Below, piece after piece: positions 13,468-33,662 of a stretch of 42,629 nt of DNA. The notes under the pieces are model-generated. The model was not told the origin of the DNA. It worked only from the letters and a program-made list of their open reading frames with translations, and made no database searches. How positions within the stretch are numbered: the first letter of the stretch is position 1; each line of letters opens with the position of its first letter. Both the position numbers and the translations under genes were made by a program. Location: positions 1-42,629 of IMG/VR virus record IMGVR_UViG_3300007540_000030. One strand, written 5' to 3'. Source of the DNA: a virus.

Positions 13468-13568
13468 ACCGCAAAAACACCAAGGACGAACCCCGCGACT
13501 AGAGCGAGGAGCCAATCCCAGTTTCGGGCGATAGCAGCGTTCAGTTGTTCAAGAATGGTTTTCCACAT
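13464..13568 (-). CDS. 34-residue single-pass membrane peptide
   Basis: A short frame from the ATG at 13568 encodes an amphipathic N-terminus (MWKTILEQLNAAIARNWDW) followed by one hydrophobic segment (LLALVAGFVLGVFAV) up to the stop. It ends with an ATGA overlap on the lipoprotein-like gene, the usual sign of coupled translation, and fills the gap between the fibre gene and that gene. There is no Shine-Dalgarno sequence; ACTATATAAC lies only 5 bases before the ATG. The size and topology would suit a small holin or antiholin-like or regulatory membrane peptide, but nothing specific identifies it. It could instead be a leader that couples translation of the next gene. Confidence 0.55.
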   Translation of the reverse strand: MWKTILEQLNAAIARNWDWLLALVAGFVLGVFAV

Positions 13569-13573
13569 AATAA

Positions 13574-13588: not shown

Positions 13589-15220
13589 TTATCCGCGTTG
13601 CAATGCAATTCCTGTGGTGTAGCCAACTACTTTGTAGTATACTCCCTCGTCAAACCTAAGAGGAATTTCATATTGAATCGCGTTATCCCCAGAATCGTCC
13701 CTTCCTACTGGTTGCCAGTTGGCACCTCCACCAGCGCCGGTTAAGTCTCGCGAACCAGCAGCACGACATGCCAGAGCAACGAACATTGCATATCCTGGAG
13801 CTCCTACTTCAAGTGTTCCTGCACCGTTTTCGAAGCCTCCGCCGTCAGGTCCAGCCTGAAATGCATAAGCGGTGAATAAAATGTTAGTGATTTGGCTATG
13901 TATGTTTTCTAACCCAGGAATAGTTTTAAGCTTTACGGTTGTTAAAGGTTTAGTGCCGGTAACATTACTAAGGATTGTGTATGGAGTTGAAAGCCAAGAC
14001 ACGGACGTACCTACTGTTTGCTCTCCAATAATAGGAATATTGTCTACTTGAGCTTGGAGAGTTCCAATTAACGTATTGAGCTGGTCTATTTGAGATTGAA
14101 TGGTGCCTGCACTGAAGTTTCTATTAATTTCGTAGGCAAACTTTTTATTAATCGACCGTAGAGTAGTGAACGGATTTAGTATGTTAGGAGCATCAGCAGT
14201 AGCAATCGCCTGTCTTTCAGGTAATGTTAATTCATTAGACCTAAAGAATGGTCTTATATCAATGAGATTATCTTCTGTTAATGCCGTGCCTTCAATATAA
14301 TTGAAAGGAACTAGTACGTAACATATAGGTAATCCAAAACTACTATTGCTTTGGCTAGCAACATAATCAACTAAATCAGCAACATTGATAGACGCTCCAT
14401 CAGGACTTTGGCGAAGCGGAGTGTTTTCATATCCTTTTGAATTTAAAATATCAGCAGTAGGAACAGTTGTAAATAAAGGTTTGCCATCTCCAGGGTTAGT
14501 CTTTGCTTCGATTAATACAGGAGGTACATTATTTACATCCTGAATCATTGTTCTAGGATTGCTCTTTGTGCCAGTGTTTTCGTATCGAGGTAGGTCGGTT
14601 CCTGACCTGCCGAAAGCACCGTTAGCTCCTCTAATAAAATAAGCTCCTCGTAAAACAGACAAGGACGGGGTTCCTCCGTCTTGGTCTTCGGATTTCTCTG
14701 CTTTGACGTACACTAAGTCTAGTCTGTACGCAGGAGGCAGGGAGTCTGAATCTGCTGGGTAGTCCTCTACGTTTCCGGCAGAAATCGGAACACTAGGTAC
14801 GGTGCCGTCTTCATTTAATCTTAGTCTAACTAAAGACGTTCTCGCAGTTCCGCTAGCAAGAAATTGCGCATTTGATTCTACGTCAGTGGTTTTTACGTCA
14901 GCCGTTGGTAAACTTAAATCCTGATTGTCTTGGGTTTCTTCTAGTCCCGTAAACCTGTCGGACGCTGAATCCATTCTCGCCAAAAAATTACCAGGGTTAA
15001 CAAAGACTCTACCGGGGTCGCCGTCTGATAAGAAGGGTTTTAGTTCCCCGAATGAAGCTCGTCCCTGAGTAACATCCAATTGGGAGCGAAGGTCGTCAAT
15101 CTGAATCTGAAGTCTCTCATCGTTCGTCAACAAATCTTGCAAAGGTAGATTATCGACCTCGTAGTAATACGGGTCGTTTGGTAAGTAATACCGAATATTT
15201 TTATTAATTTTATCAGTCAT
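13589..15220 (-). CDS. Tail fibre or baseplate appendage protein with N-terminal anchor motif
   Basis: This 543-residue protein opens with RYYLPNDPYYYEVDNLPLQD followed by LL, which resembles the start of the neighbouring 1334-residue protein (FYNWEQDNIPLAKL), and then a short helical stretch (ERLQIQIDDLRSQLDV). The region to about 200 is beta-rich with AYRLDLVYVKAEK, typical of phage fibre or baseplate-attached proteins. A helical segment near 375-395 (GTIQSQIDQLNTLIGTLQAQ) could trimerise, and the C-terminal 140 residues are a Gly-rich beta domain (TLEVGAPGYAMFVALACRAA). A virion appendage role is likely; the receptor is unknown. The start overlaps the previous stop as TAATG. Confidence 0.65.
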   Translation of the reverse strand: MTDKINKNIRYYLPNDPYYYEVDNLPLQDLLTNDERLQIQIDDLRSQLDVTQGRASFGELKPFLSDGDPGRVFVNPGNFLARMDSASDRFTGLEETQDNQDLSLPTADVKTTDVESNAQFLASGTARTSLVRLRLNEDGTVPSVPISAGNVEDYPADSDSLPPAYRLDLVYVKAEKSEDQDGGTPSLSVLRGAYFIRGANGAFGRSGTDLPRYENTGTKSNPRTMIQDVNNVPPVLIEAKTNPGDGKPLFTTVPTADILNSKGYENTPLRQSPDGASINVADLVDYVASQSNSSFGLPICYVLVPFNYIEGTALTEDNLIDIRPFFRSNELTLPERQAIATADAPNILNPFTTLRSINKKFAYEINRNFSAGTIQSQIDQLNTLIGTLQAQVDNIPIIGEQTVGTSVSWLSTPYTILSNVTGTKPLTTVKLKTIPGLENIHSQITNILFTAYAFQAGPDGGGFENGAGTLEVGAPGYAMFVALACRAAGSRDLTGAGGGANWQPVGRDDSGDNAIQYEIPLRFDEGVYYKVVGYTTGIALQRG

Positions 15221-18200
15221 TATACTAAGGAATCTAAATCAAAGATGTTGAGTGAACGCACCCCAGGACTAAAATCTACGGCAGTAGGAGAACCATCTCT
15301 GCCTTCACCTCCCGTAGACACGGTGCTTCTGTATATAGATATGCCTCCAATTTGTCTAGTGGCTAGGTGTTTTGCATTTTGGAATAAGCAGGCTCCCGAC
15401 TCATCTACAAAGTTTCTCATGTATCCTTGCCAATCTCCGTGAAGTGGTGGGATGGCAAACGCAGGAGAAGCAGTTATATTTGTTAGCCCAGACTCAGTAT
15501 TTTCAATATATGGGTTAATGTCCATACCTGAAGCGCTGCCTGGGTTAAAGCTAGCCGGGGTATAGTAGTTAATATCCGGGTTAACATAAGAAGCAACTCC
15601 CATAGTACCAGCAGGTAATCCAAAACCAAACACATAATCAGCTCCAGAAGTACTAAATCTGTCTTGGGTAGCTGGGTTTATTTGAGTGAAGTACCTTCTA
15701 CCTTGAGCACCATTCGATAAAGCTCCAGGAAGCGAGTTACCTTGTCCAAAGAAACTCATATATCCTTGAGAGTTGATTTGGTCTAATGCCCAACCTTCCC
15801 CGTCAGCGCCGAAAGTATATTGGTAAGAGCCAGATGTTGGCGTCACACTATTTTGCCACAGGTCTGAGCTAACTCCATAGAAAGATTTAACATCCCCTCT
15901 GTGTCCTAGCATCAACCTAAAGATACCATAGTTTTGGAACCCAGCAGCTCCCACTTCACCATTATTGTTAGGGTTACCCGGAGTATACGTTGCATACCTT
16001 TGTGCCGCACCAAATTCACCGAAATAATCCAAGGCTACTCCATTACCCCATTTGCCGGAAGGTCCATGATATCCTTTAGATACGCATTCCGAGTATGGGT
16101 TATTACCATTAATTAATACATCTTGAACTTTGATTCTGGAAGTATCCGCGATATTCCAAATATGCAATCTAGTTCCAAAGCTAGATGCTTGGAAATGTAT
16201 AGGAGGCATTTGTGAACAATCTGAAGAGAAATCGTACTGATACTGATTGCCTTGACCTATTCCGCCTTCGTAAGCACCTCCACCTCCATTTCCTTGGAAA
16301 CCTCCACTTGTGGCTTGGTCTCCCCAATCATTTCCGGGTTCTCCATCAGGATACTGTTCGCGTCCATAATTAGTAGGATTATAAACTACCCCTGATAAGT
16401 TGTGCTTATTAACATCCATCTTAAAGTTTACACCAAGAACATCGATGTAACTTCCGTTAACAGCCCTTGCAACCATACCTCCCGTGGTAACGTTATCCAT
16501 GGCTTCGGACGCGGTATCAACAAGTAATCTACTTTGTCTGTGAGCTTTGCCCGTAGCTGAGGTTGCAGCATTGTACGCAGCTGGAGTGTTTGTGCTGAAG
16601 CCATTAGGATACGTTTGCACGTATGCTCCACTACAGGAACTCCACCACAGTGAAGACGTTATATAATTTTCGCTCTTGTAAAGACCTGAGTACTTGACTG
16701 ATATCGAAGAAGGTGCTGTGCCTTGTCCTGCGGCTCCAGGAACACTGCTTACAAATCCGAACGGGAATCCGCCTAGGTTTTCTAATATAATTCCTGAGTT
16801 TTTATTTGCAACAAAGCAGGCTCTACTAGAGTGCACTTCTACCTGAGTATGATTTCTACTATCTAGGAGACCATACTTAACCACTTCCGGGATAGCTCCG
16901 TTTGAGGGAGTAGTGAACTTAACTAGAGAATTGTTATCCGCTAATGCGCCAACTCCAAATCTAGAAATTTTAGTAGGTCCAGTAAGTTCAATAGTCGAAC
17001 CATTATCCGCACAGATAGGGCTAGAAGTCCAGACTCGTGCTTGAGAACCTATAGTTCCTCCACTAGTATCCAAGAAGAATGTAGTATTAGACGCATTCGT
17101 TCCTCTAAACGCTACTTTAGAACCGTCTGTTACGTAGGCGATTCTACCTTTGCCTGGAGAGTTCTCCTCGGCAGCTGCGCAGAAGTTAACTAACTCCACA
17201 TCAGAGTTTCCTTCAACAACCACACAAGGAACATCGGTTGCGCTGCCTCCATTATACCCGGCGTCATTCTTATACCTAGAATACTCCGAGCCGTGCCAAG
17301 TTGCAAAGCTTCCGGAAGCAGCATTATCAGTGTCGTTTCTTCCTTCGTAGTAATCTATTGATTGTCCTCCCCAGTTGCCCATGTAGTCTGGGATAGAGGA
17401 GGCATTTGTATCTTGGTACCAAGGTTTTACTGAAGAGTTGTTAGCTGCCCTTAGGTTCTGTCCATTATAGCTTACCGCAAAAGCGGGTTTGCTTTGTAAC
17501 CAAGTTCCGTTAAAAACCTGACCCCCGTTGGGTATTCTGTAATTTCCACCGGCATTATATCCATAAAGCTCGTCTCCTCGGTAGCCGTATACTAGTTGAG
17601 AGCCCTCTAAATTAATGCCTAGTCCTTGGTTATCATCAGACGTAAACTGAGGAGACCTCATAACACTGTTTAATAATTTAAATCCTTCTCTATTATTAAA
17701 CACATCCCAACGTCCCAAATAATTTAACTCAGAGTTAATAGCCTCCACGCCGTAGAGATAATTTTGATAGGATTGAATAATGCCTGTAGTATAATCAAGA
17801 CCTCCAGCGTTAGGACGAACTTCTCCATCTTGGAAAGTGCCTCCTTCAATTGTCGAGTTATTTAATTGAATTCCAATATCATTCTTAGCGAACGTAACTT
17901 GGAACCGGTTGAATGAGGTTAAAACCCCCGTGCCTAATGGGGTATCAGAAAAAACAATAGTAGAATTATTTGATTTCAGTCCCGTACCAAAATACTTTTT
18001 ACTTCGCGTTCCATCAGTATTTTTTGGGTAAACTCTATAGGCAATCATGTTTCCCAAAACACCAATCTCGGAGTTTCTGAAACGGAAGCCGCTAGACCGT
18101 GTTCTACAAACCGCTGCGTTTTGTAAAATAATATCAGAAGAGTTTACGTCGAATCCGTGTTCCGTATTGTGGCTTAGCAAGAACGAAGCTTCAGAGTCTG

Positions 18201-19224
18201 TTCCACTAGCTCCGTCAACACAGATATTTGTAAACTTAATATCCCCGTTACAGTTTTTTACCGTAACCCCACGGAAATAGTTGCCATACATAGCAACGGA
18301 TAATCTGTTTTTACCGTACGTAGCTGCAGCTTCATTATCATCATCTAGCTGCACTCTTCTTATTTCTAAGTTTTCCCCGAACCCTGATTGGGTTCTAGGA
18401 GCAAAATCGGTTCTAGTGGCTACGACACTACTAACAATAGATTTGTCTATGCTTCTTTTATATGGATTAATGGTTATCTCATCAGTAGCAGTGAATTCAG
18501 CTCCTTTAGAGAAGTACATTCTATCCGATTCATTATTTGTGTCGGGAGCTTTCTGAGCAAAGACAGTGGTAAAATAATTTTTCGTTACAGTATCTTGTTG
18601 TGCTAAGGCAGTGCCATTATAAAAAATTTCCCCTAGGCGTACTGAGGAGACTGCTTTAATACTGCCTTGAAGTCCACTAGCCTCATTAGGGCTATGAATT
18701 TTAGTTAGAGCGCTAAACTGTAAAGTAGTACCGGACGGGTTTGTAATTTGGTCATTAATACTAGCTTCAGTTTTCCCGGCGGCTGTAAGAGCAACCACAG
18801 TCTTGGTTACGGCAGAAGGTCCATAGCCAAAGTTTTGGTTTCTAACTTCAAGCTTTCCTTGACCAACTGTAGTAATATCATTGAAGGTTACTGCTCCTAA
18901 GTCCCCGTAAGTACACAATTCAATAAGTAAGGGGAAGGATAGCCTGTTTGGAATCCGAGCAATAATATCATCCATGTTATCATAGATTCCGTTAGCCTCA
19001 TCAGCTACAGAAGATAACGTCATAGTAGTGGGTTTGTATTCTTCTCCTGGATAACCAGCATACTGATGAAGCAAATTAGTTCTTTCGATTAATTTAGCAA
19101 GAGGAATGTTATCTTGCTCCCAGTTATAGAACGTGCTGGCATCGAATAAATACCCCTCCTCAAATGTTCTCTTTAGAACATTGTTGCCTCCAGCGGAGCT
19201 AAAATCAGTTATATTAGTAGCCAT
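15220..19224 (-). CDS. Tailspike/fibre-like protein with parallel beta-helix
   Basis: This 1334-residue protein has an N-terminal anchor (YLFDASTFYNWEQDNIPLAK then LIERTNLL) like the 543-residue neighbour. From about 280 to 950 it has many short repeats of polar turns and alternating strands, for example ITINPYKRS, VTVKNCNGDIKFTNICVDG, SGFRFRNSEIGVLGNM and IGIQLNNSTIEGG. Asn/Ser ladders and small residues at turns are typical of right-handed parallel beta-helices of tailspikes. The C-terminal 300 residues are Gly/Asn/Tyr-rich with few repeats (NNNGEVGAAGFQNYGIFRLM) and may form a trimeric tip. A receptor-binding role, perhaps with polysaccharide binding or cleavage, is inferred; no catalytic residue pair can be named. 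Both ends join neighbours by TAATG overlaps. Confidence 0.7.
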   Translation of the reverse strand: MATNITDFSSAGGNNVLKRTFEEGYLFDASTFYNWEQDNIPLAKLIERTNLLHQYAGYPGEEYKPTTMTLSSVADEANGIYDNMDDIIARIPNRLSFPLLIELCTYGDLGAVTFNDITTVGQGKLEVRNQNFGYGPSAVTKTVVALTAAGKTEASINDQITNPSGTTLQFSALTKIHSPNEASGLQGSIKAVSSVRLGEIFYNGTALAQQDTVTKNYFTTVFAQKAPDTNNESDRMYFSKGAEFTATDEITINPYKRSIDKSIVSSVVATRTDFAPRTQSGFGENLEIRRVQLDDDNEAAATYGKNRLSVAMYGNYFRGVTVKNCNGDIKFTNICVDGASGTDSEASFLLSHNTEHGFDVNSSDIILQNAAVCRTRSSGFRFRNSEIGVLGNMIAYRVYPKNTDGTRSKKYFGTGLKSNNSTIVFSDTPLGTGVLTSFNRFQVTFAKNDIGIQLNNSTIEGGTFQDGEVRPNAGGLDYTTGIIQSYQNYLYGVEAINSELNYLGRWDVFNNREGFKLLNSVMRSPQFTSDDNQGLGINLEGSQLVYGYRGDELYGYNAGGNYRIPNGGQVFNGTWLQSKPAFAVSYNGQNLRAANNSSVKPWYQDTNASSIPDYMGNWGGQSIDYYEGRNDTDNAASGSFATWHGSEYSRYKNDAGYNGGSATDVPCVVVEGNSDVELVNFCAAAEENSPGKGRIAYVTDGSKVAFRGTNASNTTFFLDTSGGTIGSQARVWTSSPICADNGSTIELTGPTKISRFGVGALADNNSLVKFTTPSNGAIPEVVKYGLLDSRNHTQVEVHSSRACFVANKNSGIILENLGGFPFGFVSSVPGAAGQGTAPSSISVKYSGLYKSENYITSSLWWSSCSGAYVQTYPNGFSTNTPAAYNAATSATGKAHRQSRLLVDTASEAMDNVTTGGMVARAVNGSYIDVLGVNFKMDVNKHNLSGVVYNPTNYGREQYPDGEPGNDWGDQATSGGFQGNGGGGAYEGGIGQGNQYQYDFSSDCSQMPPIHFQASSFGTRLHIWNIADTSRIKVQDVLINGNNPYSECVSKGYHGPSGKWGNGVALDYFGEFGAAQRYATYTPGNPNNNGEVGAAGFQNYGIFRLMLGHRGDVKSFYGVSSDLWQNSVTPTSGSYQYTFGADGEGWALDQINSQGYMSFFGQGNSLPGALSNGAQGRRYFTQINPATQDRFSTSGADYVFGFGLPAGTMGVASYVNPDINYYTPASFNPGSASGMDINPYIENTESGLTNITASPAFAIPPLHGDWQGYMRNFVDESGACLFQNAKHLATRQIGGISIYRSTVSTGGEGRDGSPTAVDFSPGVRSLNIFDLDSLV

Positions 19225-19799
19225 TAGAATTCAATTGTCCATCTAAAATCTAGAATAAAGTCCGACGTTTTTGTTATGTCGTTAAATTTTCTATAAGCAC
19301 ATAAGTAAGATTTGCCTATTGTCGTTTGGTGTGGGTTTTTACTGAACAAGCCTATCTCATTTAAAACTTGGCTATTCGCAGTGTTTTCATCAAGGATTAT
19401 GCGCCATCTAACTTTTGTATCCGTTACTTTATCTATGTACGCATTGGGAATTACACCAAAACCCTCCCCTCTATGCTCGATGCCTGACGCAACTAAACTT
19501 TGTTCTACCGTTTCGATTGTGTCGCCATAAGCTGTTCTTGCAATCGCAGCTCCTAGTCTACCATTGGAAGATACTTGATAGTTAAAAGTGCTATCGCCCT
19601 CAGTTCCAAGTTGGAACAAAGTAATTTGAAAATTTCTTATATCTGAAGTTGCTGAAGCACCAAAAGCTAACGCCAAGCTAGCTCCCATTCCACTACAAAC
19701 AACATTGTCTTCTTCAAAGTGCAACTCCTCACCTCCATCTGGAAAAACTTTCCAAATCTCTAGGTGTCCCTTGTAATCGCAGTAGTCGTTAAAATTCAT
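19224..19799 (-). CDS. Small virion appendage protein with EIGLF/WTIEF module
   Basis: This 191-residue protein starts with GHLEIWKVFPDGGEELHFEE then DN, continues with IRNFQITLFQLGTEGD, RLGAAIARTAYGDT and LNEIGLFSKNPHQ, and ends in FNDITKTSDFILDFRWTIEF. The order of an early D-N motif, a strand with L-G-T, an E-I-G-L-F motif and a terminal W-T-I-x-F is familiar from small fibre- or collar-type proteins of tailed phages. No biochemical function is known to me. The N-terminal, middle and C-terminal blocks reappear in the upstream 2118-residue protein, where they flank long insertions. It starts two bases after that gene ends and its stop overlaps the next start. Confidence 0.65.
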   Translation of the reverse strand: MNFNDYCDYKGHLEIWKVFPDGGEELHFEEDNVVCSGMGASLALAFGASATSDIRNFQITLFQLGTEGDSTFNYQVSSNGRLGAAIARTAYGDTIETVEQSLVASGIEHRGEGFGVIPNAYIDKVTDTKVRWRIILDENTANSQVLNEIGLFSKNPHQTTIGKSYLCAYRKFNDITKTSDFILDFRWTIEF

Positions 19800-19800
19800 G

Positions 19801-22800
19801 CTAAAAATATAGTGTCCATATTATAGTTAGTTTATCTGAGTTATCTCCAAGTTTTAATCCTCCTGGGAAAAATACTTTCTTAGCAAACAAATCAAACACG
19901 GGTTCATTTTCAATTAATTGTTCTGAGGTATATAGGCTACTATCGTAGTATGCACCATCATAGACTCTATCAATACTCATAAAGTTAGGAGCGCTCCAAT
20001 CTGTGCTGAACGCACTTACATCATTGTCCAGATATCCGGAATCAGTGAGGGCAAAATTATAGTCAGCAATTACATCCCCATTTGTAGTATTAGTTAATTT
20101 AACTTCGTCTAATCTAATCTCATTCCTGCCTGCCAACGAGGTTTCTTGGTCTTTGGCGAAGTACCACATGACATCATTTTCGCCTGCGGCAGACGCTGCT
20201 ATGGAGAATGATTTATTGAAGCTTTGCCATTGATTTTGTTTTCCAGCAAGCTCAACAACTCCAAAATGAGGAGAGCTTACATACCCTTTGGGAGTTCCTT
20301 GAGTCCCTAAATCGTCAACAACTTTATATTTAAATGATAAGGTCATTGCGTTTCCAACCCCTGAAGCCCAGCCCGATGGGTCAAAGGAAGGAGAACCAAA
20401 ACCTGTATGGAACAACCGAGAAACATTTTTTCTATTAACGTTATCCACAGGCTCTTCTTTTGCCCGCAAACACATAGAGTTTCGATATTGGGCTCCTTCA
20501 ACAACGGCAGCGGGTGTAGGAGCTCCAGCATACCCAGCCAAATCACCCAAAGTCATTGTACTACTAAAGGGATATTGTGAGCCTGAAACCAAATACGGGG
20601 GAACAGCCATAGCTCTTTCGCTTCCTCGTTTCCGGGCTGTTTCTATCAAATTCATTGTATGCAAACCAACAGATTCAATGCCTCCATATTTCTTATCAAG
20701 AAGCTCCCATTCATCCCGTGATAGTGTAATCGCATACTTAACTCTAGGCTGTGCCATATCATCTCCAGGAGCACAAAGTCTCCTCAATGACAGATTGTCT
20801 ACAGCCATGACTGATGAAACAGCGTTTGCTGGAGATGCTGCACCCAGTGTATCATATATAAGGTTATGCCATTGTAGGTGACCATCAAGCTCCCCAGTCA
20901 GTGGCTCGTAAAAACCTACCGCGCTGACGGAAGAAAATTCATTTGGACTGTTATCTTGTAGCCACTTCATCTCTGTGTCAGAGGCTAAGACTAAGAACTG
21001 TGTATCCGTTCCGGTATCAGACTGCTCTAATAGCGCTACCGTTTGGTCCAGCCCGTCTCCACCTAAAAATTGAACATCTTGCTCCGCCAAATAGTTATAA
21101 CCACTTGGAGCTGTTTCTTGATTAAACGAATAAGACAGTCCTTTAAGGTTTGCAGGCTCACCATCGTCGTCTCCAGACAATACTAAAGACCATCTAGAAT
21201 CCCCTGGCTTCGAAGCATAAGCCCACTGTTGACCGGGGGTTGTATTCGGGTTGGTTCCTGATGTTATGGAAGAAAGGAAAGATATAGAGTCTCTTCCTTG
21301 TAGTCCTGTATACCAATTGTTTGCTCCGTCATGGTCGTTAGTGCTTCCGCTAACCAGATAACCTCCTTCAAAGTTACCGTTGCTTCCCATCACATCAACT
21401 GAGGAAACGGATAATAAATTATCAGTTAAGTAAAATACTCCGTAAGAACCTACGTGCGGAGCCTTTGTCTTAGCAGTAGAGGAAAAATAAACATCGTAAC
21501 ACGGCTGCATTACAAATCCACAACTGGAATCAAACAAAGTACTTTTGCCATAAGGCATTCTTTGCTGCTCTAGAATGTAACCATTAGGAGTGATTACGGA
21601 GAACCGGTTAAGATTTCCATACAACGTCGTGGGAGTATCTGTTGCTGCTCCTCCCGCGCCCGACATATACAATATCCCTTCCGCAGGGGGATAACATCCA
21701 TCAACCAAGGCTTCTTCTAAAGTTTTATCTCCAGTTGCATAATTAGCCGAAGTATAGAACTCAATATTGTTTAAGAAGTGACCTAGCTTTCCAGGAGTTC
21801 CTGGCGTGGCAGGTTGAATTGAAGTATCTTCTGGGTTTGGGAACTCAGGATAGACAGAGCTAACATCTTTATAGTCATACTGAGAATAGAACCTAAGGTT
21901 CCGAAGGTAAAACTGACCTTTGCCCGTCTGCGGAGCAAACATTACAGTAAATATTCTTGGGTCAGAGGTTCTGCCTTCCCACTTAGGAATACTAATACCA
22001 CTAGTAATCCAGTCATGTCCTGGGTAGTAATCTTTTAAAGACTCGTTTGGAACCTTAAAAGGCTTCGTAACCTTTCTATACTTTGATAGCGAAAGAGGAT
22101 AATTGTCGTTATCTACCAGCCACGTATTTGTTGTGAAATCCCATACCTGACGTTCTTTCGTATCTGTGTTGTATATTTGGAAAGCTTTGTACAGACTATC
22201 GAAACCTCCGCCCCAATGGTCTACAGCAACGGAAGCTTCTTTACTAGTAAAGCCAAGGTTAGATATGTAATCTGAGTAGCAAATAGTAGGCTTCTGGTAC
22301 TTGGTCGTATCCGAACCAGAAACACCTAAGAATTGAGTGCCGGAAAAATCTCTTACAAAGATTTTAGGAATATCAGGCTCGTCTGTTTGAGGGTCTACAA
22401 AGTGAGTATGCCACCCTCCTACTAAGCCTACAGGAACATTGTCTACCTCTTCTGAAGTAGAAATGTTAGATTGATTAGATAGAATCGGACCGCCGTAAGC
22501 TCCTAGGGAAACGTCAACTAGCTCAACTTTATTTATTTTTACAGAACAGCCCTTGTTAAAGATTAAGAACAAGCTGTAAGTACTATTTTCGGTTGCACTT
22601 CCTTTCGCTGCGAAAGATGTTCCGTCGCTTCCGTTGGCTAGTGTTCCCATCATCTCATTCATACCATGAATAGGAATACAGATTTGGCTGTTGCCGGATA
22701 GTGAATATTCAGTGCTTGGAATTCCTTCCCCTAAAGAACCACTTAGGCTTTGTGGAGAAACAGCAAACAAGTCGCTTTCACTAGTTCCAATTTTAGTCCA

Positions 22801-25800
22801 AGTCCCATCCCCATCATAAAAGAATACCCTTGGTTGAATAGCCTCAGTAGGTACGTCCGCTAAATTATATTGGAAGTGAGCTACAGTATCAGTGCACGTA
22901 GGATAGTTTCCTCTTATTGAGAAGTCTGTAACGTAGCATTGTTGATTTGCTATACTCTCTGCGCTCGTATCGTCCTTATCTACGTCTCCATCCTTTGCAA
23001 TCGTAAAGAACTCGAATCCCGCGCTAAAGGTATCATCATCGTTTAGTATCCACGCAGCCTGTCTGTTAATAGCTGGAGTGTAAACTAGCTGCTCTTCGTT
23101 TCTAATCTCATTAAACGGACTCCCTCCCTTACTAAATCTAAATCTATAGTTTTCTATATCCGGGTCTTCCGCAGCGGGCTTGTCTCCGACAAAACGTTTG
23201 AGAGAAAAATTATAATAAAAACGAGTAGACTGAGGTCCGTTTAAAAATAAGTAACAACCAACATCTCTACTATCTGATATTGCATTAGATTCTAGTTCAG
23301 AGGTGTAAGTGGCGGATAGTTCGCGTCGTGCGCTATCCACACTAAAAGTATACTTAGAGTTAGGAGCTAACGGAACATACAAGAATTGAGAAGGATGAAA
23401 TTGTACTGCCCTCTCATCTCTATTGTGGTATTCTGGGTTAGTAGTAGGAAGACCTCGATAGGAATCAACCTTTCTATCCGCAGCGCAGGGGTTTAGTATA
23501 GAGTTATATCCTGTGTATAAATTACCGGTGTTGTTTCCGCCTCCGTTTACCCCGTGGTATATTCCGATTAATTTAGCAACGTCGGACTCCCCGTTCTGAT
23601 TGTTTGTATAATCTGAATGCCATAACGAAACCGCTATTGAAGAGTCTTGGTTAAGTTGCTGCTTCTCAGCATCGATAATTAGATTATATTTTTTGTTTGG
23701 GTCGATGTCTGAGAAGGTTTGACCTATGTAGGTCAGCTCATCAAAGTTACTACCGTTGGTTGCATTGAAATTGGCTAATGCGTCAACCGCACTAAACATT
23801 ATTCCCGTGCCGTGGACTCCTCCTGGAAGTTGTAGCGAGGAGCGATTTGTAAGAGGATTGTTATTTAAGGCTTGGTGCCCGTACTCCCAGCCTTTCAGTC
23901 GTCCGAAACGAATATTCTTAACAATGTACTTTGCAAGATGGTCAGCTCCGTCAACACCATCAGCGTCAATAATTATTCTAAACTTATCTCTAGTGTACGC
24001 TGTGGGTAATGTAATAACTTTAGATACGCTTACAAACTCACCGGAAACAGCATTGCCATTTGCCTCACTAATCTCAAAAGGAACATTAGTTCCCCATTCC
24101 CCTTCTACATACCCAGATGCATCGTCAGTCCTAAAAGCGTAGTAAGTATCTTTAGATTCATTTACCAAACTCACTTTAATTCCTTTTGAAGTCGCAGACG
24201 CCACATACACATCCATAGACATAGTCATTATTGGAGTGTGCATACCTCCGTCATTTAACTCTACCGTAGAGAACCACTCCGCCGCATAGTTAGGAATATT
24301 AAAAGATTGAGATATACTTGCACAAGCACTTAGGTCAAACGATTGCAACGCAGATGCTTGCAGCACCGCTCCGGTTTCTCCTATCGAATTACGATACAGG
24401 GTTACTGAACCCAACGCACTAGCTTCATCAATTGGGTTAGAAGAGTTGGATAGAGGATTTATTACATCCCAGTTGGCAAAATCCACTAACCCTAAAGAAG
24501 ACGCTAAGTAATCTGGAGCGTTGGTTAAGAAGGAGTATTTGCTTAAATCAGAATTAAAGAGATAATTCTCTCTCTCACCAAACGTTGGATTAGCTACAGA
24601 ATAAACGTCACTATCGACAAGCTCTATACTTTCTAAAGCAACGAAGCCTTTTTCGTACAAGTATCTTCTAGGTAATATAAACCTAGCGACAAAATCACTA
24701 CGAAGGTTAACTAGGAAGTTATCTTCTCTTTGTGGTAGCGGGTCGAAGGAAACAACAGTAGGTTGATTTGGTTTTAATTCAACTGTTTTATAATCTTCAT
24801 AGGGTGTGAATATCTTCCGCTCAAAATTAAAATATTCTTGTTTTTCGTATGCAGTACTGAAAGGAACATTAGGCTTAGTTCTTCTATAAAATGCTACTTC
24901 AAAAGGAACACTAGATTCCCCGTTTAAGCGCAGAGTTATAGGCTGCGTTGGAAGTGAAGGAATGGGAGCGTCAACTATAACGTAATCCTGTCCTTTGGTT
25001 TTGGTCACGCAATAGGCATCTACCGTATCTCCTTTAGCATTAGTATAAGAATACTTAATCTCAGGCTCCCCTTCTACTTGAGTTTCAGGAAGCAGAGATG
25101 TACTCCTAGCTTGATTTCCATAAGATAGTTGCGCGGCTACGTTTTTATTTCCTTTATTTCCTACTGTATCAAAAATATGGTTATTAAGAGAAGGAGCTTT
25201 AGCAAATATAACAGAGCTAACGCCACTCATCTCTAAGTATTGTGCGCTGGCTGCAGTATAGTTATACTGCACTCCGTACCGGGAATCATGAGCGTCAAAG
25301 TTCTGTTTAGCAGAACCCAAGGTCATAGCTTTTATTTGGTAGTTTCCTATTTCATCTAGATTAGGAGTCTTGTTTGTGTGCAGGCGGCGAACAACCACAT
25401 TGTCTATGAAAAGTTGTGATTCGTCAAAGTTACTAGTGTTCGAATACGCAAAAGCATCTAAACACATAGTAGTTCCAGTGGTTGGTTGCCTGAAATCGTA
25501 AACCCCACTAACTGTAAACCAATCGTTGGTTGCCCACCCTGAATTAGAACTAGCTGCTAAAGTTACACTAGAAGTTGCGATATTGCCAGGAGTTAACTGT
25601 CTAAGCTTTATGGTCTTATCGGCAATAGAACCATTACCGTTTTTAACGTCCGCCTGAACGTAATAGAAATATCCTGAAGGACAGGAGATACTACTAAGAA
25701 CTAACCTAGCTCCTATTTCATCATCACTTCCTGGGCTCGTAGCACTTACGGCAAGATATCCGTCAGACTGATTACTAGTTGACGACCATATTAGTGCTAC

Positions 25801-26157
25801 CTCATCTGCGGGGGCTGTCTTCCCCCAAAAAATATCAGATACTATTCGGAAGTTGTCGTCTGTTGGAGGGAAGTTTTTAACAGCTCCAGCTCCTGAATTC
25901 TTAGTGGAGGATAAAAAAGAACTGGAATCAAAGTACGCAGAGTTATAATTGGAATCAGCAACCAGATTAGTGCCTAAGTAAAAGATACTTCCATCAGGAG
26001 TTTTATAGGTATCAACAGCTCCAGAAGGAGCTGGGATATGGGTTAGCATATTGACGATAGTTTGTTTTCCACCGTCTACAATCATGTTATTATCCCGATA
26101 AACAACCTCAGAACCTCCGGATTGTTTATGTTGAACTACTTCTACGATTCCTCTCAT
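19801..26157 (-). CDS. Giant tail appendage protein with multiple CBM-like jelly rolls
   Basis: This 2118-residue protein is probably a fibre-like or baseplate-surface protein. Its first 35 residues (MRGIVEVVQHKQ, then GGSEVVYRDNNMIVDGG), a block near 270 (IGNYQIKAMTLGSA) and its last residues (LGDNSDKLTIIWTLYF) match the 191-residue downstream protein. Between them lie at least four beta-sandwich-like units with the strand and aromatic pattern of carbohydrate-binding modules. Examples are NYLFNSDLSKY with FANWDVINPL near 530-570, FYYVQADVKNGNG near 165 and MTLSFKYKVVDD near 1930. No catalytic domain is evident. The ATG at 26157, one base after the previous stop, is preferred over an in-frame TTG at 26199 that would overlap the upstream gene by 41 bases; neither has a good ribosome-binding site. 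Glycan binding is inferred. Confidence 0.7.
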   Translation of the reverse strand: MRGIVEVVQHKQSGGSEVVYRDNNMIVDGGKQTIVNMLTHIPAPSGAVDTYKTPDGSIFYLGTNLVADSNYNSAYFDSSSFLSSTKNSGAGAVKNFPPTDDNFRIVSDIFWGKTAPADEVALIWSSTSNQSDGYLAVSATSPGSDDEIGARLVLSSISCPSGYFYYVQADVKNGNGSIADKTIKLRQLTPGNIATSSVTLAASSNSGWATNDWFTVSGVYDFRQPTTGTTMCLDAFAYSNTSNFDESQLFIDNVVVRRLHTNKTPNLDEIGNYQIKAMTLGSAKQNFDAHDSRYGVQYNYTAASAQYLEMSGVSSVIFAKAPSLNNHIFDTVGNKGNKNVAAQLSYGNQARSTSLLPETQVEGEPEIKYSYTNAKGDTVDAYCVTKTKGQDYVIVDAPIPSLPTQPITLRLNGESSVPFEVAFYRRTKPNVPFSTAYEKQEYFNFERKIFTPYEDYKTVELKPNQPTVVSFDPLPQREDNFLVNLRSDFVARFILPRRYLYEKGFVALESIELVDSDVYSVANPTFGERENYLFNSDLSKYSFLTNAPDYLASSLGLVDFANWDVINPLSNSSNPIDEASALGSVTLYRNSIGETGAVLQASALQSFDLSACASISQSFNIPNYAAEWFSTVELNDGGMHTPIMTMSMDVYVASATSKGIKVSLVNESKDTYYAFRTDDASGYVEGEWGTNVPFEISEANGNAVSGEFVSVSKVITLPTAYTRDKFRIIIDADGVDGADHLAKYIVKNIRFGRLKGWEYGHQALNNNPLTNRSSLQLPGGVHGTGIMFSAVDALANFNATNGSNFDELTYIGQTFSDIDPNKKYNLIIDAEKQQLNQDSSIAVSLWHSDYTNNQNGESDVAKLIGIYHGVNGGGNNTGNLYTGYNSILNPCAADRKVDSYRGLPTTNPEYHNRDERAVQFHPSQFLYVPLAPNSKYTFSVDSARRELSATYTSELESNAISDSRDVGCYLFLNGPQSTRFYYNFSLKRFVGDKPAAEDPDIENYRFRFSKGGSPFNEIRNEEQLVYTPAINRQAAWILNDDDTFSAGFEFFTIAKDGDVDKDDTSAESIANQQCYVTDFSIRGNYPTCTDTVAHFQYNLADVPTEAIQPRVFFYDGDGTWTKIGTSESDLFAVSPQSLSGSLGEGIPSTEYSLSGNSQICIPIHGMNEMMGTLANGSDGTSFAAKGSATENSTYSLFLIFNKGCSVKINKVELVDVSLGAYGGPILSNQSNISTSEEVDNVPVGLVGGWHTHFVDPQTDEPDIPKIFVRDFSGTQFLGVSGSDTTKYQKPTICYSDYISNLGFTSKEASVAVDHWGGGFDSLYKAFQIYNTDTKERQVWDFTTNTWLVDNDNYPLSLSKYRKVTKPFKVPNESLKDYYPGHDWITSGISIPKWEGRTSDPRIFTVMFAPQTGKGQFYLRNLRFYSQYDYKDVSSVYPEFPNPEDTSIQPATPGTPGKLGHFLNNIEFYTSANYATGDKTLEEALVDGCYPPAEGILYMSGAGGAATDTPTTLYGNLNRFSVITPNGYILEQQRMPYGKSTLFDSSCGFVMQPCYDVYFSSTAKTKAPHVGSYGVFYLTDNLLSVSSVDVMGSNGNFEGGYLVSGSTNDHDGANNWYTGLQGRDSISFLSSITSGTNPNTTPGQQWAYASKPGDSRWSLVLSGDDDGEPANLKGLSYSFNQETAPSGYNYLAEQDVQFLGGDGLDQTVALLEQSDTGTDTQFLVLASDTEMKWLQDNSPNEFSSVSAVGFYEPLTGELDGHLQWHNLIYDTLGAASPANAVSSVMAVDNLSLRRLCAPGDDMAQPRVKYAITLSRDEWELLDKKYGGIESVGLHTMNLIETARKRGSERAMAVPPYLVSGSQYPFSSTMTLGDLAGYAGAPTPAAVVEGAQYRNSMCLRAKEEPVDNVNRKNVSRLFHTGFGSPSFDPSGWASGVGNAMTLSFKYKVVDDLGTQGTPKGYVSSPHFGVVELAGKQNQWQSFNKSFSIAASAAGENDVMWYFAKDQETSLAGRNEIRLDEVKLTNTTNGDVIADYNFALTDSGYLDNDVSAFSTDWSAPNFMSIDRVYDGAYYDSSLYTSEQLIENEPVFDLFAKKVFFPGGLKLGDNSDKLTIIWTLYF

Positions 26158-29100: not shown

Positions 29101-31585
29101 AAATAACATTTCCCCTGGTGTTAGGACCGAGATTTTCACCGAGGGTTAACGACGCACTAGCATAAAGCCCAACATCTCCGGAAGCTCCAGCGCCGTCGCC
29201 TGCCGACACGAAAGACTTTATTGAGTTTGGCGCATCGTCAGTCTTGAACTCACTTTGAAAGGAGCCATATCTTCTAACTGCTTCATAGATAGCAACGCCT
29301 TTTCTTTGTTCTTCACTTAGAGTAGGGTACTCTTCAGCGGTTGGGAAATCTGTGTTTATGTCTATTGGGTCATAGACTATGTAATTCCCATCAGGGTCCT
29401 GTTCATTCCATCTACATGTACCACCCCTAAGAGCTGGTTCATCTAAGAGGTTTCTCCCGGAGGTTCCCGGAAGGTATCTATTTTCTATAGTTGTTGTTGG
29501 GGGAAGCGGATTGTTTACGAGTTTAGCTAATCCCCCCGTGCCGTGAGTTCCCACCCAAGAAGACACGATATTGTTTTGCATGGCGACAGTATTAGTTTCT
29601 TGTAGCTGTCCTTTTATAACCATACACATGCCAGCGTCTGTGTTTTGTTCTTCTGGCGTATACCCGTCACCGCTAAGGTCGACTCCCCCGTAAATTCTAC
29701 TAAGAGTGTGTAGTGGAGTGTACTCTCTTAGAACATCAGAGATTCCTCTAATATCAAACGCAGTTAATTTATCAGTGCCGTTAAGAGAAGCTTCGGGCAG
29801 AACTAAGTATAAGTTAGAAGACTTAGAGCTCCAATAATCTAGAACTGAAATCTCTTGATTTGTTCCACCATCTACAACCGCAGAAAAGTTAGGAGCAATT
29901 GAGTTACCGGATGTGAAGAACTTAAGACCATTGTTGTCCCCAAAGAAGAAGTCTGCAGTGGATTCAGTCCCTAGCGTAGTGGAGCTGAGGATATAGTTTT
30001 CTAGTGCATCTACAAACGAAGAAGGAACTCTAAATCCAAAACTAGCATTTTCTTGGCAATCTCCTTCTAGAGCTTTCCTTAGGTACACAAGAACTTCATT
30101 AGTTATTCGCGTGTTCTTGTAAAACGTATCATACTCAAATGGAGGTACAGCTAGTGTATATCCTTGTCTAGCTTCAAATCCAACACCCTTTGAAATATCT
30201 GCTAAAGATTTATGATTAAATCTCATAAACCCTGTGTTCTTTTCGATGAATTCTAAGATAGCATCTACAGAGAACCTAATGTTTTTGTCATGGTCATAGG
30301 GGTCGATATTAATCGTAAGACCAGATACATTATTTACTTGGGTTTGTAGGTAAGTTGATAGAGACGAAAAATCAACGCAAGTGGGAGATTCCGTCTTAAG
30401 AGTATAATAAATTAGATTGGGCAGGTACGACTCCCAACACTCTCTTATATCTGACGAAGCATCAAACGTACTAAGCTCTTTTGGGAATACAATCTTTATG
30501 GCATCTACTAAAGCCTGTCTTGTTCCTTTTGCTTTGTAAGTGTAAACCGCTCTACGCAGCTGTCCTCTCCACATAGAAACATCATCGCCTAAGAATCTCC
30601 ATCCAATAACCGAAGCTAAGTGGTCTAAGAATTGAGGAGGACAGTTTTCAATATCAAACAAGTCCTGCATAGATTCAACAATCATGTCCAGGTCGTAAAA
30701 AGCCCACGAAGCAGCTTTCATAAACTTGGTAAAAGGACCAGAAGAATCGAACTTAGAATAAATCAAAGAAGACCCTTCAAGAGCTTCTAGAGAGTTACGA
30801 ATAAACGGAGAGTCCTGGTCTTCCTTGTTTAGCCATACAGATAGTAAAGTTTGTAGTCTTTCTAATTGTTGGATGCCCGAAGCAAAGGTAACCCCTGATA
30901 TAGAGGAAGTAGGTTTGTCGAACTCTGGGGGAAGGTATCTTCCGAACTCGGGAACAGCATCTCTGTTTTTCCAAATGTATTCAAAAAGCACATTTGCGGC
31001 AGTCTCTTCGGTAAACTCGCCACCATTAGAGTAGTAAGCGCTTGTTACATAGTCTGCTAATACTGCTGATAACTCCGTGGTCGCATTTGCGTTAGACGAA
31101 GTATTAAGCATGTACAGCAAGCCCACCGTGTCAACTAGCCCAGAGTGAACTTGGGCGGATACTGTGTAATCATTATTAGGGTTAGAAGACACCCCAGACA
31201 CAAAGGTGTCTGAAAGATGGCTAAGAACCATATTAGGCTGAATTGTTCCCGAAAAATAATTCTTAAAATCATCTTGGTTTTTAAAAGAATTAAAAGATTT
31301 ATTTAAAGGAGCTAAGATAGCATCAGTAAATGTATTTGCATCTACTCTTGTAAGTCTATTCTCAGGGACAAAGAAAGGTTTAATAGAACTTAAAGCATAC
31401 CCAGAGACAGTAAAGAATGTATCGCACTCATTTGCAGCAAGTAAATACTTGCCTAATAATTTATAAGCTATCTCTTCAACTTTTGTTTCACCTTTTTCTT
31501 CTGAAATGTATACCTCTGGAAGAAGCTTGGTTATCTTCTCCACATAGTTGTACTTAAATACATCTTCATTACCGCGATAAGGCAT
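26159..31585 (-). CDS. Giant baseplate wedge protein with gpI/gp7-type domain and CBM-like domains
   Basis: This 1808-residue protein begins with a helical region (KITKLLPEVYISEEKG) and, at about 305-370, has the P2 gpI / T4 gp7-type segment: LFDIENCPPQFLDHLASVIG, WRFLGDDVSMWRGQLRRAV and YTYKAKGTRQALVDAIKIVF. In P2-like phages and injection systems this fold bridges the J/gp6 wedge and the fibres. The remaining 1400 residues are beta-rich, with CBM-like units such as FTPGQRYRISFWYRA and FNLLANGDFKLE with SNWELLDPL near 1330-1365. T4 gp7 has 1032 residues, so the extra mass is mostly decorative domains. The gene follows the gp6-like gene with a TAATG overlap, as I follows J in P2, supporting the wedge role. 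Confidence 0.8.
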   Translation of the reverse strand: MPYRGNEDVFKYNYVEKITKLLPEVYISEEKGETKVEEIAYKLLGKYLLAANECDTFFTVSGYALSSIKPFFVPENRLTRVDANTFTDAILAPLNKSFNSFKNQDDFKNYFSGTIQPNMVLSHLSDTFVSGVSSNPNNDYTVSAQVHSGLVDTVGLLYMLNTSSNANATTELSAVLADYVTSAYYSNGGEFTEETAANVLFEYIWKNRDAVPEFGRYLPPEFDKPTSSISGVTFASGIQQLERLQTLLSVWLNKEDQDSPFIRNSLEALEGSSLIYSKFDSSGPFTKFMKAASWAFYDLDMIVESMQDLFDIENCPPQFLDHLASVIGWRFLGDDVSMWRGQLRRAVYTYKAKGTRQALVDAIKIVFPKELSTFDASSDIRECWESYLPNLIYYTLKTESPTCVDFSSLSTYLQTQVNNVSGLTINIDPYDHDKNIRFSVDAILEFIEKNTGFMRFNHKSLADISKGVGFEARQGYTLAVPPFEYDTFYKNTRITNEVLVYLRKALEGDCQENASFGFRVPSSFVDALENYILSSTTLGTESTADFFFGDNNGLKFFTSGNSIAPNFSAVVDGGTNQEISVLDYWSSKSSNLYLVLPEASLNGTDKLTAFDIRGISDVLREYTPLHTLSRIYGGVDLSGDGYTPEEQNTDAGMCMVIKGQLQETNTVAMQNNIVSSWVGTHGTGGLAKLVNNPLPPTTTIENRYLPGTSGRNLLDEPALRGGTCRWNEQDPDGNYIVYDPIDINTDFPTAEEYPTLSEEQRKGVAIYEAVRRYGSFQSEFKTDDAPNSIKSFVSAGDGAGASGDVGLYASASLTLGENLGPNTRGNVIFMDPSRFTPGQRYRISFWYRAATGDKRDKSISFNIQQAEPFDSEDIETVKLVDNNDSTLASGTAWHYKEQDFEYPSDGGSIGVSSTSSLNPSALVGPSVWFGAFAYRRAGGYTTAHSETSVLGIANVKVAPVFWEPAAGLERNSIRRRSYRYLLSGSNYNREGRSAPISNAFATSGRLDLIPTETGYLPQYLPKGFNFSGQNFISPAVNAMSGIYDASNTAFIDENVIRGNAPDANILGVPVNLSFPYRAIEELLDCSSSNEKRRQFTKSPKQIFIDYALRRGKDDYSFLDFSEHNMIYSEFGSGFHQLWLDYKDPSKFNLNLSGGGHDALAFAFGPLVFNNDFNTRGPAASATNLPGQDYEFSGLRAYRDGDRTALSSLQFANIAGSDGIVGESFEDPNGRLIAATLRGLIFSQGFGSYKSVFDTYEFGKETNIWANQSILSGIELVCKEGTNNLAVFNYKDFTDGCNPYLTSTALDKSITVFGGKEDVTDKSNALRVRFPLSKNFNLLANGDFKLEPTSARTLESSSLSAVSNWELLDPLRTPRFRSGALPSNYGWVTPSSVNFADYSGVPGTYEDVLVFFSKDNPPTLVGGNEKSMIATVNEGRQEEAVNSPLTLIPGENYKIELTASSLAATAGFGFVLGNVTKNVFYKPSDGTWGTETAFYRLAPAAGEITNKSYTVSKEFNVPVSANIDGNVSQNITFSPTDRWKLWIAPYSSANTGSYTLDMLFKATISKQQSNTLYPNRKYRAEVYVDYHDPEGLTDYLGIRLVTTPNPLVNGSAMKSFAYDWNGVGARWQLNSPGDLSKNMNISMQELPPFIDVLSGSVPQTKKIEFEFTTDNHRGPIDPETRQLMSISRGPEYGNIHTSDTSYTLEFIPLMPERQVITDANRPYIRLRNLNIVDVEYNESVKNLTTTEAKNFLEYFNTLRLTTATRDLAKGEELGLGTKGGARSEYLEPWGGPLESTIDYQVSGWTPYSI

Positions 31586-33228
31586 TATACAAACTCAAAG
31601 TTAAGTTCAAAGTTGTTTAACTGTATGATTTCATTAAAGTTTACGAAAATATCTTCGTCATAATTCGTCACTTTAAAAAATCTAACGTCCGGATTATTCA
31701 TCACAAAGTTAGCCAGCTCTGGGAATCTTAAAGGTTTACCAAAATCCATGCTGTCATAGGACAGATATTCTGTTATACTTCTACTCACACCCGCCTTTAC
31801 ATTTTCTTGGAGCGCTAACTTATTTCTATCTACAAAGACTGTTGCTACTAAATCAACAGTTCTCACTAGACCATCTACAATCGTCAACTCATCAGTAAGC
31901 ATCTTATAGCTGTTAAGATGATTTAGTAAGTCTGATTTAAACGGCAAGGATGCTCTCTGCAGTTGGGTGTCTGTAGCTTTAGCTAAAACATAAATATCAA
32001 TCATGTTTCCACCTGCTCCAGACTGACGAGCAACAGCTAGAGCTTTGCCCGTTTGACCTGTAGTTCCAGCATAGCTATTTGCAATAGCTGTATAGTCTTC
32101 TCCAGTAACAGCTCTATACTGAGTTCTGAAGAAGTATGGTGCATATTTCTTTGCGTGAGCAACAGTTTCGGCATTTGCTCCACCAGCAGCCACTGTTGTA
32201 TTTGTAATTGTACACTCTACAGGCGAACTTCCATTTTTCAATCCATTAACCTGAGTTCTTATAGCTCCTTCTACAATATCTCCACGGTTACCTCCACCAA
32301 CTCTATAAACTACAGTGTAGTCCTGACCGTTCTGAGGGCTCTTACCTCTGATGTCGTCACCAAACAGTAGGCTGCAAGAATAATCGTCGTTGTAAATTTT
32401 CTCAAAGACCGCGTCAGTGCTGCCTGAAGCTAGACTAAGGCTTTGGATTTCAGAATATACTTCATCTCCAGACGAGACAAAAATACTTCCTTCGATAATC
32501 GAAGGGTCAGGAACTCTAATTCTCTTGGAAGACTGCGCGGTAGAGAAGGTTCCTTGCAGAGTTTTGTAAGTACCCTCCAATAACACAAGACCCGTGAAGT
32601 TAGAGCCCTCACCATAGCTGTTATAATCCAGAAGAAGGTCTCCCGTTTGGGCGGTAGTTGCTTCATCAATAAGTCCCGTAGCTTTGTTTATTTTATAAAG
32701 AGTATAGGTTAGTTGGGTGTTGTCTCGTTGTGAAGTGGTCGTTACTGTTCTTTGATTACTAGGTATAGTTAATGTATCACCCCCGGCAAAAGATACGCTA
32801 CTCTCTGGAGTTAGAAGAGCCGTAGCTTTACTGGCTATCGGACCTTTCATTTTTACTCCAATTAGTTCTAAAACTTTTCTTAAGTTTTCTGGAGTCTTAA
32901 CAGTGCTTAAATAAGACTCATTAGCCAAGAAGTCTGCTTTTAAAGAAAGCACTGAAGCTAGGTAGGCAAACAATTCAATAAAAACAACACCTAGGTCTGA
33001 TTGTACGAAGTTATTGTAATCATCAGGATATACAGCCTTAACATAATCCATCAAGGCTTCTTTGAATTCATCAAAGTCCGCAACCGAATAATCAATCAGT
33101 TGAGATTTGGCTAGCTCTTGGATTTGACCAAGTCTCATAAAATCTGACTGCACAGTGCCATCAAAAGCCGAAGCGTTATACCTGATAGGGTCGGCAGCAG
33201 CGGGAGGAATATAATTTAAATTTGCCAT
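31585..33228 (-). CDS. gp6: Baseplate wedge protein, gp6 / P2 gpJ family
   Basis: This 547-residue protein has the baseplate J-like layout. It has an N-terminal helical region (FDEFKEALMDYVKAVYPDDY), VQSDLGVVFIELFAYLASVL, ADFLANESYLSTVKTPENLR and LIGVKMKGPIASKATALLTP. A beta-rich middle carries LLFGDDIRGKSPQNGQDYTV, the F/W-G-D/N-G-x-G-like loop, then VYRVGGGNRG. The C-terminal part has APYFFRTQYRAVTGEDYTAI and a final PDVRFFKVTNYDE. Homologues dimerise to form the ring that holds the baseplate together and triggers sheath contraction. T4 gp6 has 660 residues; this is closer to shorter J-like proteins of P2-like systems. It is joined by TAATG overlaps to the gp25-like gene upstream and to the gpI-like gene downstream. 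Confidence 0.88.
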   Translation of the reverse strand: MANLNYIPPAAADPIRYNASAFDGTVQSDFMRLGQIQELAKSQLIDYSVADFDEFKEALMDYVKAVYPDDYNNFVQSDLGVVFIELFAYLASVLSLKADFLANESYLSTVKTPENLRKVLELIGVKMKGPIASKATALLTPESSVSFAGGDTLTIPSNQRTVTTTSQRDNTQLTYTLYKINKATGLIDEATTAQTGDLLLDYNSYGEGSNFTGLVLLEGTYKTLQGTFSTAQSSKRIRVPDPSIIEGSIFVSSGDEVYSEIQSLSLASGSTDAVFEKIYNDDYSCSLLFGDDIRGKSPQNGQDYTVVYRVGGGNRGDIVEGAIRTQVNGLKNGSSPVECTITNTTVAAGGANAETVAHAKKYAPYFFRTQYRAVTGEDYTAIANSYAGTTGQTGKALAVARQSGAGGNMIDIYVLAKATDTQLQRASLPFKSDLLNHLNSYKMLTDELTIVDGLVRTVDLVATVFVDRNKLALQENVKAGVSRSITEYLSYDSMDFGKPLRFPELANFVMNNPDVRFFKVTNYDEDIFVNFNEIIQLNNFELNFEFV

Positions 33229-33662
33229 TATCTTATTACTACGTCAATAACTTCTTCCTCATAGGGCGTTGCAGTGAAGCCCACATTTAAGGCTACGTAA
33301 ATGCTGTTGGGGTCAGACTCAGGACCTTGAACAACTTTTAAATCTTTTACAAAAACTCTAGGTTCGTATACTTGGATAACATTTCTAATATCTCTGTTTA
33401 GCTCTTCAAGAAGCGACCCCGTTAAGGGTTCGAACAATGCTGCTTTTAGATTAGTGCCGTAGTCTGGATACATAACCCGTTCCCCTTTTTGAGTAAGGAG
33501 AAGCTGTCTTAAGTTTTGGTAGACTACTTCCTTATCAAAGCTTTTGGGGAAAAAACCTCCATCCGCAGGAGCCGTGGGCAATGGAAACCTAAGACCGACA
33601 ATCCTATCTCTTCTTGAGGTAGTAATGTAGTCTAGGTTATTTGCGAATAGAGTATCAGTCAT
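33228..33662 (-). CDS. gp25: Baseplate wedge protein, gp25 / gpW family
   Basis: This 144-residue protein is a gp25-like sheath initiator. It has the usual VVYQNLRQLLLTQKGERVMY, PDYGTNLKAALFEPLTGSLL, an amphipathic helix (EELNRDIRNVIQVYEPRV), then strands IYVALNVGFT and the terminal EEVIDVVIR. The YEPRV motif is the conserved E-P-R core found in T4 gp25, P2 gpW and type VI secretion TssE. It contacts the first sheath ring and the J-like ring. The order gp25, gp6, gpI in one run of overlapping genes matches W-J-I of P2. Its start lies one base after the stop of the LamG protein gene. Confidence 0.93.
   Translation of the reverse strand: MTDTLFANNLDYITTSRRDRIVGLRFPLPTAPADGGFFPKSFDKEVVYQNLRQLLLTQKGERVMYPDYGTNLKAALFEPLTGSLLEELNRDIRNVIQVYEPRVFVKDLKVVQGPESDPNSIYVALNVGFTATPYEEEVIDVVIR

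Follow-up and report, generated by a model that had tools for sequence, protein, structure and literature searches.

In this study we analysed a viral DNA stretch of 42,629 nucleotides (IMG/VR virus record IMGVR_UViG_3300007540_000030, positions 1 to 42,629; hereafter the window), which belongs to a marine T4-like virus. A small protein of 191 residues (S) and a giant protein of 2,118 residues (G) adjoin, as an original prediction made from the sequence had stated; they are encoded on its minus strand, and both lie directly downstream of genes for gp25-, gp6- and gpI-like baseplate wedge proteins. We consider it probable (about 0.78) that S and G are paralogs of one baseplate module, a connector linking the wedge to the fibres, and that G was expanded into a scaffold for the display of glycan-binding domains. 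Sequence comparison establishes the paralogy of S and G, the insertions in G, the differences in inserts among close relatives and the conserved position of the genes.

Homology between the small and the giant protein

To collect relatives, IMG/VR was scanned with the small protein, with an alignment built on it and with short homologues of the giant protein. These scans gave 163 loci on viral contigs, and hidden Markov models built from these loci were used to read gene order. Loci L001 and L007 are near-identical to the window and were not counted as independent evidence. In some relatives a third tandem copy (M) lies between G and S. Profile comparison of S and G with hhalign, the check proposed with the original prediction, was significant in both halves: the N-terminal part gave E=2.7e-12 (block 1, S residues 10-47, E=1.8e-12), and the C-terminal half of S against that of 85 G sequences gave E=5e-6 and a score of 33.7; the best of 150 column shuffles scored 19.2 and the reversed profile 16.4. 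Comparison of S with C-terminal blocks from 8-11 sequences had been too weak (E 2e-3 to 8e-3) and was replaced by the 85-sequence profile with the column-shuffle controls.

On the window giant, the 88-sequence S profile gave 10.8 bits at residues 2-40 (best of 500 shuffled giants 3.1) and a weak 2.4 bits at residues 266-309, the expected place, and the M profile gave 25.6 bits at residues 1-74 (best shuffle 6.7). Profiles of G built without the window sequence gave 46.2 and 16.1 bits for the N-terminal part (best of 500 shuffles 3.6), and 30.5 bits at residues 1799-1854 and 25.5 bits at 2075-2118 for the 85-sequence C-terminal part (best of 500 shuffles 5.2). A profile of 27 short G proteins (336-427 residues) matched the giant in five collinear stretches (residues 1-61, 263-296, 1434-1495, 1799-1844 and 2076-2118; whole-sequence E=7.3e-26), while S and M are homologous over the full module (profile E=4e-47). 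By these profile comparisons, S, M and G constitute one paralogous family with homology over both halves of the module. The three collinear blocks named in the original prediction (giant residues 1-46, 269-282 and 2068-2118) were all recovered by profiles where they had been placed, but that list was incomplete, as a fourth block had been overlooked: VKYAITLSRDEWELLDKKYGGIESVGLHTMN of the giant (residues about 1806-1836) corresponds to VRWRIILDENTANSQVLNEIGLFSKNP of the small protein (motif GGIESVGL vs LNEIGLF), and it was found in 91/91 non-redundant G proteins.

The phrog_5417 family, whose function is unassigned, was matched by 72 of 84 S proteins and not by the window G. A tblastn search of 50,697 phage records with the window proteins gave no match, a distant S relative being needed as query, and a PDB sequence search with the S profile found nothing.

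Structure prediction points the same way. In the model of a short G ortholog (L057, 352 residues; AlphaFold), the order of strands and helices in the terminal blocks is the same as in the model of S, itself a confident prediction, and in BFVD this short G matches whole viral proteins of 150-205 residues over about 350 alignment columns (best-cited match A0A6J5KWE3, 150 residues, probability 1.00, TMt 0.64). Such a whole-length match is possible only if the N- and C-terminal blocks belong to one domain; separate folding of these blocks, which had been named as evidence against the duplication, is thus not what is predicted for L057, and the model supports one S-like domain formed by both ends of G. 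At rank 17 stands R4TMF4 of the haloarchaeal virus HGTV-1 (188 residues, E 0.32, probability 0.44), which we infer to be HGTV-1 gene 28, as the length is the same and the S profile finds gene 28 by sequence. The S model itself matched by Foldseek the tail chain 9h4p_BD of HFTV1 in the PDB (E 1e-3, TMq 0.46) and also an arm segment of phi812.

Inserts of the giant protein and the locus in relatives

The original prediction, in which one copy of the module became a scaffold with about 1900 inserted residues, holds as to insertion; the excess over short G is about 1,770 residues, placed at four positions, and between blocks 2 and 3 G has in addition a core peculiar to it, about 150 residues long (Table 1). 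The L057 protein, which groups with the long-G clade, aligns to the giant in collinear pieces that the inserts separate. The inserts at sites 1 and 2b were found only in the window lineage and L002; L003 has neither, and the site-1 insert was found in no other G. The window and L002 share 51% and 64% identity at the two sites, more than the 25% between site 1 and site 2b, which indicates that this domain was copied to its second site before the window and L002 split. Site 2a holds domains that are partly common to other long G proteins, and the carriers of the site-3 insert (the window, L002, L003/L004, L022, L024 and L025) cluster together on the S tree with a support of 94. Judged from these distributions, the inserts were gained stepwise at four loop positions and one domain entered twice. 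Duplication followed by insertion, as originally proposed, is thereby upheld by the profile homology in both halves, the natural intermediate lengths of G and the predicted structure of the short ortholog.

As for what was inserted, the adjacent gpI-like protein contains a domain related to two of the inserts (E 2e-6 and 4e-8), and the same protein matches the carbohydrate-binding module (CBM) family CBM_4_9 (E 5.4e-5) in another region; by these two links a CBM-like nature of the inserts is plausible. The inserted domains are probably beta-sandwiches and, by analogy, likely bind host-surface glycans. The gpI-like protein is itself enlarged to 1,808 residues, with the G-insert domain at residues 1330-1532 and the CBM_4_9 hit at residues 720-960, a region that was not found in the other gpI, G or M proteins examined.

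Within the span of each contig, the 163 loci keep the gene order gp25-gp6-gpI-G-(M)-S-fibre-second fibre-like gene. S has 189-221 residues in 88/88 non-redundant cases and G 336-2,161 residues (91 non-redundant cases), with size classes of 336-427, 532-707, 793, 993, 1,198-1,224, 1,440-1,617 and 1,952-2,161 residues at one locus. M (37 non-redundant cases, 211-1,230 residues) is missing in the window. In relatives it is lengthened at its C-terminus, where an enzyme domain may follow the connector module, either a sulfatase (PF00884, best E 2.4e-29) or an alpha/beta-hydrolase (a weak, acetyl-xylan-esterase-like match).

In the 993-residue G of L077 (5106-8087), RCC1-like propeller repeats (E 2.5e-24) sit between blocks 2 and 3, so this site accepts different folds. 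The fibre gene after S (the 1,334-residue family) is present as two tandem copies in L034, L038, L045 and L047, and in L013 (647-5292) and L014 the gpI-like gene is split, unlike in relatives, into two open reading frames (630 + 917 residues) that meet at their ends. Elsewhere in the window, a 458-bp island (13112-13569) covers part of a short open reading frame with a lipoprotein-like start, MRLLVAFTLLFASCSM; it is 97-98% identical to L009 and L010, compared with at most 78% in other matching stretches, which suggests a recent exchange.

Table 1. Features of the S-G locus in the window, and enzyme-carrying M genes of relatives (residue numbers refer to G unless S is named).
Feature	Coordinates	Strand	Evidence
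S, minimal connector-like protein, 191 residues	19224..19799	-	AlphaFold2 (AF2) predicted local distance difference test (pLDDT) 89.9, predicted template modelling score (pTM) 0.87; phrog_5417 E=3.7e-8
G, expanded paralog, 2,118 residues from ATG at 26157	19801..26157	-	short-G profile, collinear, E=7.3e-26
G block 1, residues 2-46, ~ S residues 10-47	26020..26154	-	hhalign E=1.8e-12; hmmsearch
Insert site 1, residues 50-260	25378..26010	-	window lineage and L002 only; homologous to site-2b insert
G block 2, residues 269-282 EIGNYQIKAMTLGS, ~ S IRNFQITLFQLG	25312..25353	-	hmmsearch 16.1 bits at residues 263-299
Insert site 2a, residues 283-1435, several domains of about 150-240 residues	21853..25311	-	absent in short G (e.g. 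L057)
G-specific core, residues 1436-1530, PEFPNPED...GHFLN...NGYI	21568..21852	-	37.6% identity to L057 98-179, E=2.9e-8
Insert site 2b, residues 1571-1794, second copy of site-1 domain	20776..21447	-	25% identity, E=1.3e-9; absent in L003
G block 3, residues 1808-1836, ~ S residues about 130-156 (LNEIGLF)	20650..20736	-	profile and L057 alignment
Insert site 3, residues 1845-2058	19984..20625	-	window lineage, L002-L004, L022, L024, L025
G block 4, residues 2068-2118 FDLFAKKVFF...TIIWTLYF, ~ S YLCAYRKF...DFRWTIEF	19804..19956	-	profile and L057 alignment
gpI-like baseplate wedge protein, 1,808 residues	26159..31585	-	Tail_P2_I E=0.001; CBM_4_9-like region E=5.4e-5
gp6/J-like baseplate wedge subunit	31585..33228	-	phrog_219 E=3.7e-38
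gp25-like baseplate wedge subunit	33228..33662	-	phrog_261 E=8.8e-19
Fibre-like protein, 1,334 residues, follows S in relatives	15220..19224	-	gene order across relatives
M with C-terminal enzyme domain	L071:6836-9997, L070:6816-9983, L058:6747-9980, L060:7359-9983		

Comparison with known connectors and rival explanations

Previous work described A511 gp105 and T4 gp8 as dimeric connectors that join receptor-binding proteins to the baseplate protein BW3, and the Milano garland proteins gp125 and gp127 as sharing the gp8/gp105 fold (PMC10811340). The Listeria phage A511 has the order BW1, J-like BW2, BW3 (gp104), gp105 and gp106, with gp105 directly after BW3 and before a large fibre gene, the same position as that of the module in the window and its relatives (gp25-gp6-gpI-S-fibre). 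The lengths are similar (173 residues for gp105, 191 for S), whereas A511 has a single gp105 gene and the window-type phages have two or three divergent paralogs. Gene position and, less clearly, the fold of the S model point to a role like that of A511 gp105 or T4 gp8, in which the module would connect the baseplate wedge with the tail fibres.

A precedent for G itself is Gp119 of Bacillus phage Vp4 (831 residues), an A511-gp105-related baseplate protein with two CBMs that Deep-Blue Gp177 and A511 gp105 do not have (PMC11406892). Like this gp105-type protein, G is enlarged by extra domains that close relatives lack, glycan-binding ones in Gp119; however, the number, positions and sequences of these domains differ, Gp119 is much shorter than G, and no plain paralog is described beside it. 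Evolved Dit and Tal proteins of siphophages have CBMs inserted in their loops and contribute host binding in addition to that of the true receptor-binding protein (PMC7291167). An evolved Dit is, like G, a structural tail protein with loop-inserted domains, but it is another protein with another fold (the hub ring), usually with one or two CBMs and no tandem paralog. We rejected an identification of G as an evolved Dit, as the window has a contractile-sheath gene (phrog_23) and T4-type baseplate wedge genes, and G follows gpI. The tail fibre adaptor domain of P2 gpH type (DUF3751) was likewise considered and did not appear when 84 S and 25 G proteins were compared with Pfam. By analogy with Vp4 Gp119 and the evolved Dits, G in its expanded form probably contributes weak binding to glycans at the rim of the baseplate.

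Several results weigh against the reading proposed here. Direct BLASTP of S against G found nothing significant: its best pair (E 0.011-0.04) matched by chance and out of collinear order, and the genuine pair of N blocks scored E 0.15-0.40, so that the claim would be unacceptable from the two sequences alone; pairwise BLASTP and phmmer were dropped as uninformative. The blocks that the two proteins share are short and have diverged to about 20-30% identity. The L057 model has a mean pLDDT of 73 (pTM 0.80) and had no Foldseek hit in the PDB. The inserts found no Pfam or PDB sequence match and no CBM relatives by sequence search, which leaves the original label of CBM or adhesin domains weakly backed, through the profile links to the gpI domain. 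Set against A511 gp105, the 88-sequence profile of S gave an hhalign E of 0.64, and for this reason S and G are described as connector-like and not filed as members of the gp105 family; the S model matched the gp105 structure (6hhk) with probability 0.85-0.90 and E 4e-3, but with template-modelling scores of 0.29-0.32 and a root-mean-square deviation of 15-18. Finally, the S tree has very long branches to the outgroups and an uncertain root.

The BLASTP result and the divergence of the blocks would suit a view in which these are short motifs common in phage tail proteins and G was assembled from unrelated domains without any duplication. We regard this as very improbable, because the profile scores lie far above shuffles in both halves, the secondary-structure elements have the same order in the S and short G models, the fold of short G matches small proteins over their whole length, and the genes stand in tandem, with short forms of G that contain little beyond the module. 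A long ancestral G, with short G, M and S as deletion products, is improbable too, if somewhat less so. Length changes on a tree cannot by themselves separate gain from loss, and secondary loss is conceivable for L057, given its place with the long-G clade; yet in distant bacterial and archaeal phages (Vibrio D69, P. putida Peetri, haloarchaeal HGTV-1 and the 595-kb LR756511) the gpI position is followed directly by one short S and a G is not recognisable, G of more than 1,100 residues needs one origin on the S tree while short G occurs in several separate branches, and the domain of sites 1 and 2b is a duplicate restricted to two genomes. The direction from small to giant is therefore favoured, though with such long outgroup branches and an unsure root it is not proven. 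G might also be an adhesin elsewhere on the virion that shares fold and operon with a connector without being one, as the reuse of the connector fold off-site in the Milano garland (PMC10811340) would allow; we think this unlikely, although less so than the two foregoing views, given that in each of the loci inspected G is flanked by gpI (BW3) on one side and by M or S on the other, the place that gp105 takes in A511.

In the history that we propose, an ancestral small tail-baseplate connector would have been duplicated and the plain copy kept next door as S. G keeps the two halves of the module at its ends, with the extra residues inserted in its loops. The module would sit on the baseplate wedge (gp25-gp6-gpI) and link it to the tail fibres; S would remain the plain connector before the fibre gene, and G would have turned into a display scaffold whose inserts contact the host surface beside the true fibres.

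Implications for marine T4-like phages

A structural tail protein enlarged by inserted binding domains is of a known kind, while to our knowledge the scale, the retained plain paralog, the enzyme-carrying third copy and the graded natural series are new. A more speculative idea, which we hold to be doubtful, is that tandem G, M and S form a row of different connector subunits on each baseplate wedge, instead of the identical gp105 beads of A511, each with its own payload: the loops of G would take adhesin or propeller domains, the C-terminus of M a sulfatase or esterase, and bare S would hold the fibre. If true, such a rail would be evolvable, its payloads being swapped bead by bead. A tail-borne sulfatase on M would suit sulfated marine polysaccharides. 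The graded series of G lengths at this locus (336 to 2,161 residues), beside which a plain copy persists, illustrates how giant viral adhesion proteins may grow by loop insertion and reveals which loops of a baseplate connector tolerate large cargo. Further, it suggests what phrog_5417, and giant genes without annotation in marine T4-like phages, may do.

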